DNA from: a virus | IMG/VR virus record: IMGVR_UViG_3300042862_000163 | Coordinates: 1 to 64,000 of that record | Length of the DNA stretch: 64,000 bases | Direction: 5' to 3' (one strand) | Shown here: positions 1,511 through 5,781 of the stretch, piece after piece | How the letters are laid out: each line of letters begins with the position of its first letter | Position numbering within the stretch: position 1 is the first letter of the stretch | Notes under the pieces: model-generated | The model's database searches: none | Seen by the model: only the letters and a program-made list of their open reading frames with translations | What the model was told of the DNA's origin: nothing | Program-made: the position numbers and the translations under genes

Positions 1511-1733
1511 GATTGAGAGTTTATTCATTGCAACTCACAAGTGTTCCCTATCCACAGAGACCATAGCTTACAAGTTTAAAATGTGTGGATGTAAGACCAC
1601 TTGATAGAACTTCACATACTTGGTCTCAGACCTATTCTATCTGGTAACACTGAGCTGTTACAGGGCAATTCACGACACTTAGCTTTGTCCAATTGCTTGT
1701 TGCTTTCCTAGTGCTAAGATCAAACAACAGATG
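1511..1733 (-). other. structured non-coding stretch, unexplained
   Basis: No convincing reading frame. On the minus strand several complementary pairs are visible: GTAACA/TGTTAC around GCTCAG, GATAGAA/TTCTATC about 25 bases apart, GGTCT/GAGACC, and GTGG/CCAC around a T-arm-sized loop. It sits between the terminator and a tRNA-like element in the same orientation. It may hold one or two degenerate tRNAs or another RNA; I cannot fold it with confidence. Confidence 0.35.
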
Positions 1734-1845
1734 TGATTGAGACAGGAATCGAACCTGTAAGGTATAACCACTGAACGTGGAGATGGAAGTTAATTCTTCT
1801 TTTACAATACCAACCTGTGAGCATTTACCATTTCGCCACTCAATC
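1734..1845 (-). tRNA. oversized tRNA-like element (112 nt)
   Basis: The minus strand shows a 7-base acceptor pair (GATTGAG with CTCAATC), a plausible D-arm (GCGAAATGGTAAATGC) and a canonical T-arm (ACAGG TTCGATT CCTGT). The interval between D-arm and T-arm is far too long for a normal tRNA. It contains a possible anticodon arm (CACAG GTTGGTA TTGTA, which would read TGG) plus about 44 extra bases with two more hairpins (GAAG/CTTC and CCAC/GTGG) and a GGTAT/ATACC pair. The 3' CCA is not encoded. It could be a functional tRNA with a large insertion, a degenerate tRNA, or a tRNA mimic; the anticodon is left unassigned. Confidence 0.5.
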
Positions 1846-2029
1846 ATTTAATAGATTTTAAATGTCTCTAACTTACTTATAGTGTCTCACGTTACTTTCA
1901 GTTAGAGTTACATTAATAGAAAGCCTAATTGAGCTACAGTCTAAAGCTTGATGTATACTTGAGATACACATCTTCTAAATTAACAATTACTCCATGTACC
2001 AGTAACTTTACTATTATATGTCTGGCTCG
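1846..2029 (-). other. non-coding spacer with long inverted repeat
   Basis: Between the tRNA-like element and the tmRNA no gene is visible. On the minus strand CTCTAACT and AGTTAGAG form an 8-bp pair about 35 bases apart, and a segment reading TGTAGCTCAATTAGGC resembles a tRNA 5' half, but I find no matching T-arm or acceptor partner. Possibly a decayed tRNA. Confidence 0.3.
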
Positions 2030-2421
2030 TGGAGGTGGGGAGAGTCGAACTCCCGTCCAAATTACTTTCATTAATACAATTTATACAGCTTCACGTTTCT
2101 TTAAACTCTTTACGTTAGAAAGGTCAACTAATTAAAGAAGACTCCACCAGAATGTTTTTAAGGAATCATACAAACCTCCTTATGGCAAATGTTATTGTCT
2201 GTAGCCAGTGTGTGACAGATTTAATGCTTATGCAGCCATTTCTAGCTCTTCAACATTAGAGTTAATTAATGAAAAAACTTTGCTCATGTTAGCGTTAACT
2301 TGGTTAACATCTAACGAAATTACTTTGTTGTCATTTATTAAAATTCACCTTAGTTTTAGCCAGTTATCTCTCTGGGCTGATTGTATCAATTAGTAGTAAC
2401 CTGTCAAAACCAGTCACCCCC
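2030..2421 (-). ncRNA. ssrA: transfer-messenger RNA (tmRNA)
   Basis: tmRNA rescues stalled ribosomes: its tRNA-like ends are charged with alanine and its internal frame adds a degradation tag. On the minus strand the 5' end reads GGGGGTGACTGGTTTTGACA and the 3' end GGACGGGAGTTCGACTCTCC followed by CCACCTCCA. The 7-base acceptor GGGGGTG pairs with CACCTCC (one G-U), and the T-arm GGGAG TTCGACT CTCCC is canonical. The length of 392 nt is normal. CCA is not encoded. An open tag frame ends with GCT GCA TAA at 2235-2228 (reads ELEMAA) and is open back to at least nt 78 of the RNA, so the tag may be about 27-31 residues if the resume codon is near nt 99-111. Bacterial tmRNA is normally chromosomal; phage copies are known but uncommon. 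Identity is well supported by both ends. Confidence 0.9.
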
Positions 2422-2639: not shown

Positions 2640-2854
2640 TATTTTTTAACTACTTGCTGAGAACTCATTTGTGTTGTGGCAATGTTCTCTAGGTTTGCCA
2701 AATCTTTTTCCTTTCTCAAGGGAACAACACAATTCAATGTTACCATGAATATCCAATTTTTAAAGTGGCTTTCGATGTTCAGTCCACTATTACCAATCTA
2801 ATTCTATGCTTCCAAGTTTCATTAAGGCCTATGAATTAGTAACAGTCTCCTCGG

Positions 2855-2958
2855 TAGTCAGGACAGGATTCGAACCTGTATAATTAGCTTACGATTATCT
2901 AATTACCCGCTTTTCCAAGCAGCTAGGGGTTGCGTCTATCCAATTCCGCCACCTGACT
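2855..2958 (-). tRNA. oversized tRNA, Leu-like body (104 nt)
   Basis: The minus strand has a 7-bp acceptor (AGTCAGG with CCTGACT), a D-arm very close to bacterial tRNA-Leu (GGCGGAATTGGATAGACGC), a long variable arm (TAATTAG with CTAATTA) and a T-arm ACAGG TTCGAAT CCTGT. The region that should be a 17-base anticodon arm is about 26 bases, with ACCC/GGGT as the outer pair. An inner arm CTGC...GCGG encloses TTGGAAAA, which looks like a Ser-GGA anticodon loop with one extra base. The anticodon is therefore ambiguous. It is a class II tRNA by its variable arm; whether it is functional is uncertain. CCA is not encoded. Confidence 0.65.
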
Positions 2959-3040
2959 TAGCTTCACACAGCTTAGCTATTTTATCTTTTGTATCACTCT
3001 AGTGAGTTTTAAACTGACTACACTGATATGAAACATAAAT

Positions 3041-3067
3041 ATCCCTGCAAATATAATTCACAGGGAT
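3041..3067 (-). terminator. hairpin downstream of VWA gene
   Basis: ATCCCTG (3041-3047) pairs with CAGGGAT (3061-3067) just after the stop of the VWA gene. On the minus strand it is followed by ATTTATGTTTC, a weak U-tract, so it may be a terminator or an RNA-processing site separating the mRNA from the RNA cluster. Confidence 0.45.
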
Positions 3068-3079
3068 TAATAATCAAAA

Positions 3080-4465
3080 CTATTTTTTAGTTATTTGTAA
3101 CTTACCTGCTTCTTTTGAATGAGAATACACTGATTGATCTTCATTCACTTGAATTAGTTTACCACCAGTTTGAAGACAAAGATGTTTTAAATCATCATTA
3201 TATTCCATCAATGTAATAGCATTCACTTTATAAGGGAACTTCTTTGTATTGATTCTATCTTGTCCATCATTGATAATTAATATCTCTGGTTTCTCTTCAA
3301 ATAAATCTACATCTAAGTTACAAAGTTTGTGCTCATTAATTTCAGAAGCAATTCTTTCAACCATATCTGCCACTTCAGTTGATCCACCATCAGGTTCATT
3401 AGAGAATGTTTGCCAAAATGATATAACATCTTCTCTGTTCTTGATATGTTGAAATTCTAAATCATCTGCATCATGTACAAAATAACTAAAGAATACTTCA
3501 GCTTCTCCTCTCATTACATATTTGAATCTATCTATAAGAATAGCATTAACCCAAATTTGTTTTTCAGGGTCATCCATACTACCAGAGAAATCTAATATAA
3601 TGATAATCTTCTGCTTCTGTTCTTTTCTATCAACTGGAACATTTACTGTTAAGTCTTTAGTTAAGAATTTAATATCAAAGTTAGGAAGAAGTCTTTGATA
3701 AAGATCAATCATTGTTAATTGATCATGACTTCTCATTATCGTTTTAAGATATTGATCAGAGTTAGCAACTATTTTCTCATCTATTTCCTTCTCCACTTTG
3801 AATTCAGTACCAAATTCACCAACAAGAGATAAAAGATTTAATATCTCCATTGATCTCTCTTTACTCATTTCATTAAGATTCAATTGTTCATTGATACTTG
3901 GATCAGTATATAGAGTTCTATCGAAATCTAACCCTTTCTTCATATCCACTTCAGTATCATCTTCATCTTTCTCACCAGACTCACCAGCACTGTTATCTTT
4001 TAGTTTTAAATAAATAGATATAGCTTGTTCCAATGGTGTGAATCCAGGAATATATTGATCATAGATACTATCGAACAATTGTTTCTTTCCTCTTTGAGTA
4101 TCACTTTGTTGATCTTCTTCAATGAATGCATCAGCTATGTAGTCTTTTTCATCAATCATTTTGAAATAACATACACGAGCTAGTTCTTTAATCATATCAA
4201 TAGAGTCTTGTTTTCTTACATTGACTTTCTTCTTGATATCCACAGCAGTTGGTGTTAGATAATGTACTGGATCTTTGACGAATAAACTATCATCATTATC
4301 TTCATACGAAACTACAAATGAATAGTTAGACCAACTACTCTTTGACCAACCACCACTACCATATTTACTTTTCCATCCTCCATTACTCCTTTTTTTTGGA
4401 GTAAATGAAGAAGGAGTATACAAATCTTCATAATCTGTATACTCATTTCCCCATAAATCTTTCAT
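3080..4465 (-). CDS. VWA-domain protein, partner of MoxR-type ATPase
   Basis: A 461-residue protein with a Ser/Gly/Trp-rich N-terminus (residues 22-50), an acidic linker near 158-175 and a C-terminal von Willebrand factor A domain. The metal-ion-dependent adhesion site is visible: DFSGSMD (DxSxS) near residue 293, GGST near 360 and INDGQD near 398. VWA proteins paired with MoxR AAA+ ATPases act as metal-dependent adaptors in chaperone-like remodelling of target proteins. Its start codon overlaps the stop of the ATPase gene by one base, so the two are made together. In a phage the target could be a host or virion protein; that is inference. Domain call is strong, biological role unknown. Confidence 0.85.
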   Translation of the reverse strand: MKDLWGNEYTDYEDLYTPSSFTPKKRSNGGWKSKYGSGGWSKSSWSNYSFVVSYEDNDDSLFVKDPVHYLTPTAVDIKKKVNVRKQDSIDMIKELARVCYFKMIDEKDYIADAFIEEDQQSDTQRGKKQLFDSIYDQYIPGFTPLEQAISIYLKLKDNSAGESGEKDEDDTEVDMKKGLDFDRTLYTDPSINEQLNLNEMSKERSMEILNLLSLVGEFGTEFKVEKEIDEKIVANSDQYLKTIMRSHDQLTMIDLYQRLLPNFDIKFLTKDLTVNVPVDRKEQKQKIIIILDFSGSMDDPEKQIWVNAILIDRFKYVMRGEAEVFFSYFVHDADDLEFQHIKNREDVISFWQTFSNEPDGGSTEVADMVERIASEINEHKLCNLDVDLFEEKPEILIINDGQDRINTKKFPYKVNAITLMEYNDDLKHLCLQTGGKLIQVNEDQSVYSHSKEAGKLQITKK

Positions 4466-5781
4466 TATATAAATTGTGCTATTTGAAGATTCTTTTTACA
4501 CTTATCTATCACTGCAACAGCTGCTTTTACAAGTTGAGTATGCATGCTTACAAGATCATCATTAACTGTTAATGATCTAAGATCACTTAATTTATCAGTA
4601 AGACTCTTAAGAATGATTTTGTATGCTGTCTCATCAGTTCTAGTTGATAATGGAGTTTCACTTATTGCTGACATTATATCAGTTAGTTCCCCTGACATTT
4701 GTCTGAACTTAATTGTTCCCTCAAATGTTTTGATAGCTTCAGCTATTAATGCAGGTTTCTTTGTGAATTCAGCAATGAAACTTAATGCTTCTGGTCCACA
4801 TTGATCATACACTGAATAAGCTGTTACAGCAATCCTTGGACTGATTGTAATACCATTCTTTGCATACTCTTGTAACAAGTATGGAATAACTGGATCTACA
4901 TTATCAACACCAAATTTGCTTTCCAACAATTTGTTGTAACTGATCTCAGTATAATTATCCCAAATAACATTTAACTCAAGAGGAAATCTCTCCATCAATG
5001 CTCTTAATGACATATTCTTAGAGAATTCATCACGAGTTCTATTTGTACAACAAATGATGAACTTAGTCTTGATTGGATACACTTGTGTACCATTTCTAAA
5101 CACACCACTTGATAGAATATCTTTTAATTGCTCTAAAATAAAATCAGGAGCATCAAACATCTCTTCAAATACAACATATTCATGATCCATAAATGAATTC
5201 TCTACAAGATATTCTATTTTACCTGTCTTATTGAATTTTAATATATTCATACCACCAAATAATCTATCTGTGGTCATACCTGTACCCATTGTAATAACGT
5301 AAGGCTGAATACCTCTTTCTTTTAGGAAATCTAATGTTTTCTCTGATTTTCCGTGTCCTCCTGGACCATAAAGAACAATATTCTTACAGGTGTTGAAACC
5401 TATGTTAAGAACTTGATCTGTCTTGTCCATGAATACGAATTTCTCTGTAGCTGTTTCTGTAACGTTTTCTAAATTGTTCATCTGTTTTTCTTTTGTTATT
5501 AAGGATTTGTTTAAATTAATTTGTTCTAAAATTTGTTCTATTGGCATTTCTGGTTCGTTCAATATAAAATCATGTGAATGATACCAATAGCCTTCTATTT
5601 TGAAATTATTATCATTATCCATGTGATTTTCTATTATGTCAATCCATTCATCATCTATATCTTCTCCTAAGACAACATTCATATCACCATTAGTATTCCA
5701 ACCTACTGGAGAATCAATTCGTTTATCCCATTTACCAATGTCTTTAAATTCTTCTTTTGTTCTAAATCTATATTTACTCAT
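4465..5781 (-). CDS. MoxR-type AAA+ ATPase with fused N-terminal extension
   Basis: A 438-residue protein. Residues about 115-330 form an AAA+ module: Walker A GPGGHGKS (139-146), Walker B VVFEEM (E206/E207), sensor-1 Asn in CCTNRT (N247) and arginine-finger candidates in LRALMERF (R260, R265). The order fits MoxR/CbbQ-type ATPases that load or remodel a VWA partner, here the next gene. The first 100 residues are different: they look like a small phage protein of their own (MSKYRFRTKEEFKDIGKWDK). They end in QINLNKSLITKEKQ, which is a translated AT-rich leader carrying the motif AATCCTTAATAAC used before other genes. Met101 (nt 5481-5479) is therefore a second plausible start, and the gene looks like a fusion through loss of a stop codon. 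Both starts may be used. Confidence 0.85.
   Translation of the reverse strand: MSKYRFRTKEEFKDIGKWDKRIDSPVGWNTNGDMNVVLGEDIDDEWIDIIENHMDNDNNFKIEGYWYHSHDFILNEPEMPIEQILEQINLNKSLITKEKQMNNLENVTETATEKFVFMDKTDQVLNIGFNTCKNIVLYGPGGHGKSEKTLDFLKERGIQPYVITMGTGMTTDRLFGGMNILKFNKTGKIEYLVENSFMDHEYVVFEEMFDAPDFILEQLKDILSSGVFRNGTQVYPIKTKFIICCTNRTRDEFSKNMSLRALMERFPLELNVIWDNYTEISYNKLLESKFGVDNVDPVIPYLLQEYAKNGITISPRIAVTAYSVYDQCGPEALSFIAEFTKKPALIAEAIKTFEGTIKFRQMSGELTDIMSAISETPLSTRTDETAYKIILKSLTDKLSDLRSLTVNDDLVSMHTQLVKAAVAVIDKCKKNLQIAQFI
5495..5508 (-). promoter_or_regulatory. leader motif copy inside the ATPase frame
   Basis: The minus strand reads AAATCCTTAATAAC, 13 bases before the internal ATG at 5481. It is the same motif that precedes other start codons of the block but here it is translated in frame (KSLIT). 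This supports Met101 of the ATPase as an ancestral or alternative start. Confidence 0.5.

Follow-up and report, generated by a model that had tools for sequence, protein, structure and literature searches.

A phage-encoded tmRNA is present on the minus strand of the window, which is the whole stretch of DNA analysed here (64,000 nt, the first 64 kb of the 114,520-base IMG/VR virus record IMGVR_UViG_3300042862_000163), and it is the only tmRNA in this 114.5 kb record. The RNA carries a tag of 34 amino acids and belongs to a family of long-tag tmRNAs that appears to be undescribed, whereas tmRNA in phages as such is already known. tmRNA releases ribosomes that have become stuck and adds a tag to the incomplete protein; it is usually seen as a host quality-control factor with a short degradation tag. 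No description of a tmRNA in crAss-like phages or of this long-tag family was found in the open-access literature.

Detection and Structure of the Phage tmRNA

ARAGORN made a single tmRNA call at 2029-2421 on the minus strand. The cmscan analysis matched Rfam model RF00023 to 2027-2421 (-) over model positions 1-374, which is the full length, with a score of 90.2 bits (E=1e-33; gathering score, 47). The preliminary description had proposed a phage tmRNA at 2030-2421; the whole of this interval was matched by both Infernal/Rfam and ARAGORN, its limits were right within one base, and the strand, which had not been given, is minus. A chance match was ruled out by the E-value, the covariation and the synteny described below.

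The gene is of the one-piece type (ssrA-like) with a length of 393 nt. All of its parts lie on the minus strand. The acceptor stem consists of the 5' strand GGGGGTG (2415-2421), containing G3 of the G3-U70 alanine identity pair, and the 3' strand CACCTCC (2031-2037), containing U70, as placed by cmscan, the ARAGORN acceptor stems and the host comparison. It is followed by A73-C74 at 2029-2030, with the CCA incompletely encoded (ACGA). The T-arm, GGGAG TTCGACT CTCCC, occupies 2038-2054, and its stem shows compensatory changes. Helix H2 is formed by a 5' side at 2376-2403 (alignment columns 20-46) and a 3' side at 2058-2089 (alignment columns 488-522). A family-diagnostic motif, CAGAGAGATAACTG...AAACTAAGGTGAA, which is invariant or almost so in the alignment, lies at 2344-2374.

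When the interval was folded, its 5' and 3' ends paired to give the acceptor stem, the T-arm and a closed H2, and thus the tRNA-like domain. The same three elements were recovered by RNAalifold from 22 aligned relatives, and 24 of the 42 pairs showed compensatory changes on both sides. G3-U70 was kept in all 22 sequences, while acceptor-stem pairs 4-7 co-varied. ARAGORN analysis of 62 loci revealed 15 distinct acceptor stems, and G3-U70 was present in all those read in register. For pseudoknots PK1-PK4, the mid-model posterior probabilities were low; the alignment yielded only short stems and one resembling PK1 (CAG/CTG). The 3' ends of the family encode A-C, mostly without CCA, as do those of most sampled hosts. 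Identical tags were found together with different tRNA-like domains (L008 and L101), and therefore the two halves of the tmRNA recombine.

Affiliation of the Phage

The phage is a virus of Bacteroidota bacteria. Its major capsid protein matched Pfam PF23898 (Crass_capsid) with 101.7 bits (cut-off, 27), its TerL matched phrog_6681 with 282 bits, and its terminase and portal gave matches to phage families. Judged by the capsid protein and TerL, the phage is crAss-like in the broad sense, as distinct from an ICTV-family placement, and the crAss-like carrier suggested in the preliminary description was confirmed to that extent. In a TerL tree of 18 rows with a midpoint root and long branches, the window sequence grouped with close IMG/VR relatives, then with Leptolyngbya phage Lbo-JY46, Cellulophaga phage phi17:2 and csAssE-Sib, and was placed apart from the sampled ICTV Crassvirales (Suoliviridae and phi14:2).

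Genomic Context

A MoxR-type AAA ATPase gene (PF20030; 4465-5781, -) is located next door but one to the tmRNA gene and served as a syntenic anchor, since it lies upstream of the tmRNA in relatives. ARAGORN detected a tmRNA downstream of a relative of this ATPase gene in 19 of 32 IMG/VR loci; in these relatives the tmRNA is syntenic. The adjoining ORF of 461 aa (3080-4465, -) had no Pfam or PHROG match; its position beside the MoxR ATPase suggests a vWA partner.

Other RNA-like elements surround the tmRNA gene. Downstream of it, at 1733-1845 (-), lies a tRNA-like RNA with a conserved acceptor stem (GATTGAG/CTCAATC), a Leu-type D-arm and a T-arm, which ARAGORN labels as a tRNA with an intron. 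The middle of this RNA type, 39-90 nt, is hypervariable and contains no normal anticodon arm, and seven distinct versions were observed among seven relatives. Counterparts occur in L112 (8932-9076), L094 (11445-11556), L114 (11120-11231), L103 (8750-8897), L098 (5503-5604) and L189. The element may be a tRNA decoy, or else a second tRNA-like RNA. A further tRNA-like gene at 2853-2958 (-) combines an enlarged anticodon loop with a long variable arm and was called Phe(gaa) with a 7-nt intron by ARAGORN. Two non-coding blocks beside the tmRNA, at 2646-2731 and 2961-3073 (-), are ~75-100% conserved in relatives and gave no Rfam match at the gathering score.

Start, Length and Conservation of the Tag

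The resume codon was located by comparison with a host reference of 80 loci carrying the GENNYALAA tag, which were collected by pattern from named genome records and are nearly all from Bacteroidota. In these loci, the resume codon is usually preceded by TTTAAA[CT], TTTAATT or a near variant, and GGC, the resume codon, is at nt 94-99 in the 69 host ssrA genes that ARAGORN called in full. Each of the 25 phage sequences checked has, at nt 84-91, a G[GA]N codon that is preceded by TAAA[CT] or TAATT and lies in the tag frame, and this phage context, TAAA[CT] followed by G[GA]N, resembles the host context of TTTAAA[CT] followed by GGC. Alignment to the 69 host ssrA genes placed the presumed resume codon ~24 nt upstream of the tag start given by ARAGORN. 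The ARAGORN start (VNQVNANM..., 26 aa) was rejected and GAC at 2330-2332 was preferred, since resumption in hosts takes place immediately downstream of TTTAAA[CT] and all members checked carry an in-frame G[GA]N codon at that site. Read from this codon, the tag frame (2231-2332, -) encodes DNKVISLDVNQVNANMSKVFSLINSNVEELEMAA, which comprises 34 aa, ends with MAA and is followed by the stop codon TAA (2228-2230, -). The internal frame noted in the preliminary description is thus present, at 34 codons instead of the 26 of the ARAGORN tag. Within the phage, no protein resembling the window tag was seen apart from the tag itself.

At least 94 distinct tags were obtained from more than 100 viral loci. 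Their length ranges from 24 to 49 aa with a median of 35 (94 distinct tags); the ANM core is present in 93 of the 94, a C-terminal AA in 87 and the longer ending [VLIM]AA in 80. Both ends of the host tag are retained, namely a G-x-N-like start in most members and the [VLIM]AA end, with an insert of ~25 residues between them. The 94 tag ORFs are open from the resume codon, and the other two frames contain 4.6 and 3.1 stops on average. The pN/pS values of the tag frame were 0.52 (35-aa group), 0.29 (window group) and 0.44 (15-codon core), compared with 0.87-1.42 in the other frames. On the basis of these comparisons, the tags are under purifying selection at the peptide level. The Asn codon of ANM switches between AAC and AAT (58/35), with Asn itself kept. 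Within single groups, the position-3 excess by minimum steps was only moderate (p=0.005 and 0.02). In the alignment, four pairs (GCTA/TAGC) join the ANM codons to a site near the end of the tag, and the tag may owe some of its conservation to constraints on the RNA.

The open mRNA-like part bears on whether the RNA acts as a decoy that titrates SmpB or competes with the host tmRNA and in this way shuts off trans-translation by the host; the model for such a role is the RNA of mycobacteriophage DS6A, which is TLD-only. An RNA of this TLD-only kind, resembling that of DS6A, is reported to inhibit tmRNA strongly (PMC4131195); however, an open mRNA-like part and peptide-level selection in 94 tags would be needless for a decoy, and we consider such a role very improbable.

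Distribution of the Family

The motif CAGAGAGATAACTG...AAACTAAGRTGAA, located just after H2, was shared by all 22 sequences of the alignment and by 15 of 20 near-complete relatives and was detected, by a scan of viral contigs allowing a gap of 1-8 nt, in at least 119 viral stretches. It was absent from the 395 Bacteroidota genomes searched, with the commonest subtype (1-nt gap) included in that search. A narrower form of the motif (gap, 2-8 nt), which misses the commonest subtype and covers the longer-gap subtype only, was found in 0 of 84,980 species' genomes. The family therefore appears, within the genomes searched here, to occur so far in viruses only. Of the motif-bearing records, 43 were tested for TerL, and 35 of these encode one of phrog_6681. 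The named phages of the family are phi14:2 (Crassvirales), Calle, phi38:1 and the FpV4 group, and the internal tag module is common to phages with divergent TerL, namely the window clade, phi14:2, Calle and FpV4.

In two viral contigs, L252 and L143, the tmRNA 3' ends are identical to host ssrA over 33 and 29 nt, respectively, which suggests recombination with host genes. The viral contigs L148 and L164 carry a divergent tag of 49 aa, GNIDNDAQEVVDINYTFSTPMMVVHKGERKSVSPSQDLSWGTRQVAIAA, which lacks the ANM core; the copy in L164 is cut by the contig end.

The exact sharing of 29-33 nt with host ssrA 3' ends by two family members, together with the argument that tmRNA genes are common attachment sites (PMC11590407), would fit a relic of an integration site, in which host ssrA was captured at excision of a temperate phage, as proposed for Maribacter phage Panino. 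For the window RNA, however, the longest exact 3' suffix match to any of the 69 host ssrA genes is only 6 nt, and a tyrosine-integrase match was not found in the phage record. The tag is also unlike the host type, and the family motif was not seen in the 395 Bacteroidota genomes searched. The integration-relic origin is disfavoured, and we regard it as extremely unlikely.

Proposed Role of the Phage tmRNA

The RNA is probably a functional phage-encoded trans-translation RNA that would use the AlaRS, EF-Tu, SmpB and protease of the host and add a long phage-specific degron. We infer its expression, charging, use of SmpB, protease and benefit to the phage along the following lines. Host AlaRS would charge the phage tmRNA with alanine via G3-U70, and the host CCA-adding enzyme would complete the CCA. 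In the infected cell, host SmpB and EF-Tu would deliver the charged tmRNA to ribosomes that have stalled on broken mRNA. Translation would then resume at GAC after TAATAAAT, and the 34-residue phage tag would be added. Its end, MAA, resembles the C-terminal signal recognised by host ClpXP-type proteases. As an outcome, ribosomes would be freed, and the unfinished proteins would carry a much longer, phage-specified degron. No SmpB match was detected in the phage record, and therefore the phage tmRNA must use host SmpB. The suggestion in the preliminary description that the phage copy might replace host ssrA found no support, as ssrA is retained in the hosts and SmpB gave no match in the phage record. 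Most likely, the RNA rescues ribosomes while mRNAs are being cut in the infected cell and directs the products to disposal through a long degron specific to the phage.

The same description had raised redirected tagging, which is plausible in so far as the tag is strongly unlike that of the host. In its stronger form, ribosomes would be rescued, yet the main purpose would be the ~25-residue module (NAQxEANMxxVxxxL), which would bind a different protease, an adaptor or a phage factor and thereby put the fate of tagged proteins under phage control. The conservation of this module under purifying selection across the divergent-TerL phages points in this direction, as does a family tag ~4 times the host length; on the other hand, the [VLIM]AA C-terminus in 80 of 94 tags fits plain ClpXP-type degradation, and RNA pairing may account for the conservation of part of the module. 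Such retargeting as the main purpose is, in our estimation, unlikely. A broader proposal, that a phage-only tmRNA family in several groups with crAss-related terminases has replaced the 9-residue tag by a conserved one of ~35 residues with a specific action, such as recruiting another protease, an adaptor or a phage factor, is put forward tentatively, as less probable than not.

If this specific action of a phage-only tag were true, the phage would control the fate of stalled-translation products. With a tag of ~35 amino acids in place of the 9 of the host, these phages may be choosing how proteins from jammed ribosomes get marked. What a phage gains from its own tmRNA was raised as a question, but without a test, in the open-access papers found. 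A widespread family, seen in the present searches only in viruses, in which the tRNA half and the two ends of the host tag are retained around a conserved inserted peptide of ~25 residues provides a direct handle on the gain from a phage's own ribosome-rescue RNA, and it has cultured members in Cellulophaga phages phi14:2, phi38:1 and Calle and in Flavobacterium phage FpV4. Standard annotation, by ARAGORN or in GenBank records, misplaces or misses the tmRNA genes and tags of this family.

Comparison with Known tmRNAs

The one-piece tmRNA of Bacteroidota hosts resembles that of the phage in its tRNA-like domain with G3-U70, its resume context (TTTAAA[CT] followed by GGN), its C-terminal AA, its length of ~395 nt and its mostly incompletely encoded CCA. 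The host tag GENNYALAA, however, has 9 aa, compared with 34 aa in the window phage, and the region after H2 of the host RNA lacks the phage motif in the Bacteroidota genomes searched.

Within the family, the tmRNA of phi14:2 (Crassvirales; Steigviridae; Akihdevirus balticus) at 4031-4500 has the same motif and a long tag, GNDTDNTQLKANMTVVHNILNGSDALIGSSVQKLAMVA, of 38 aa, but it is longer (470 nt), is unannotated in its record and comes from a phage whose TerL is in another clade. In that record, three 'hypothetical protein' CDS cover the tmRNA (4000-4519), and two of the three run in the opposite direction to it. The tmRNAs of Calle and phi38:1, with a tag of 30 aa, and of the FpV4 group, with a tag of 35 aa, share the motif and tag type in different phage groups (Pervagoviridae and Fipvunavirus, respectively). 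The tmRNA of Flavobacterium phage FpV4 at 3691-4105 (-), with tag GNTNNSVVSLEDNAQVEANMNMAFSLIREDVAVAA, is unannotated and was missed by ARAGORN; its Rfam score is 58 bits.

The preliminary description considered tmRNA rare in phages. A 2022 survey reported it in 402 of 18,146 phages, ~2.3% (PMC9004378), and tmRNAs are annotated in Cellulophaga phage Calle (PMC8776804) and Maribacter phage Panino (PMC11590407), so that the view was not upheld; the unannotated RNA of phi14:2 is of the same type. Complete tmRNAs are encoded by Bacillus phage G and by mycobacteriophages of cluster C and Wildcat (PMC4131195). In Wildcat, the tmRNA is the most highly expressed lytic gene (PMC7474061), which shows that strong expression of a phage tmRNA can occur. 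The ssrA of Methylophilales phage Melnitz is likewise phage-encoded and is thought to maintain translation or recycle proteins, but it is two-piece, permuted and under a glutamine riboswitch (PMC9004378). The tag of phage G, AKLNITNNELQVA, has 13 aa and shows no sign of the same tag family; long tags are therefore not a general feature of phage tmRNAs.
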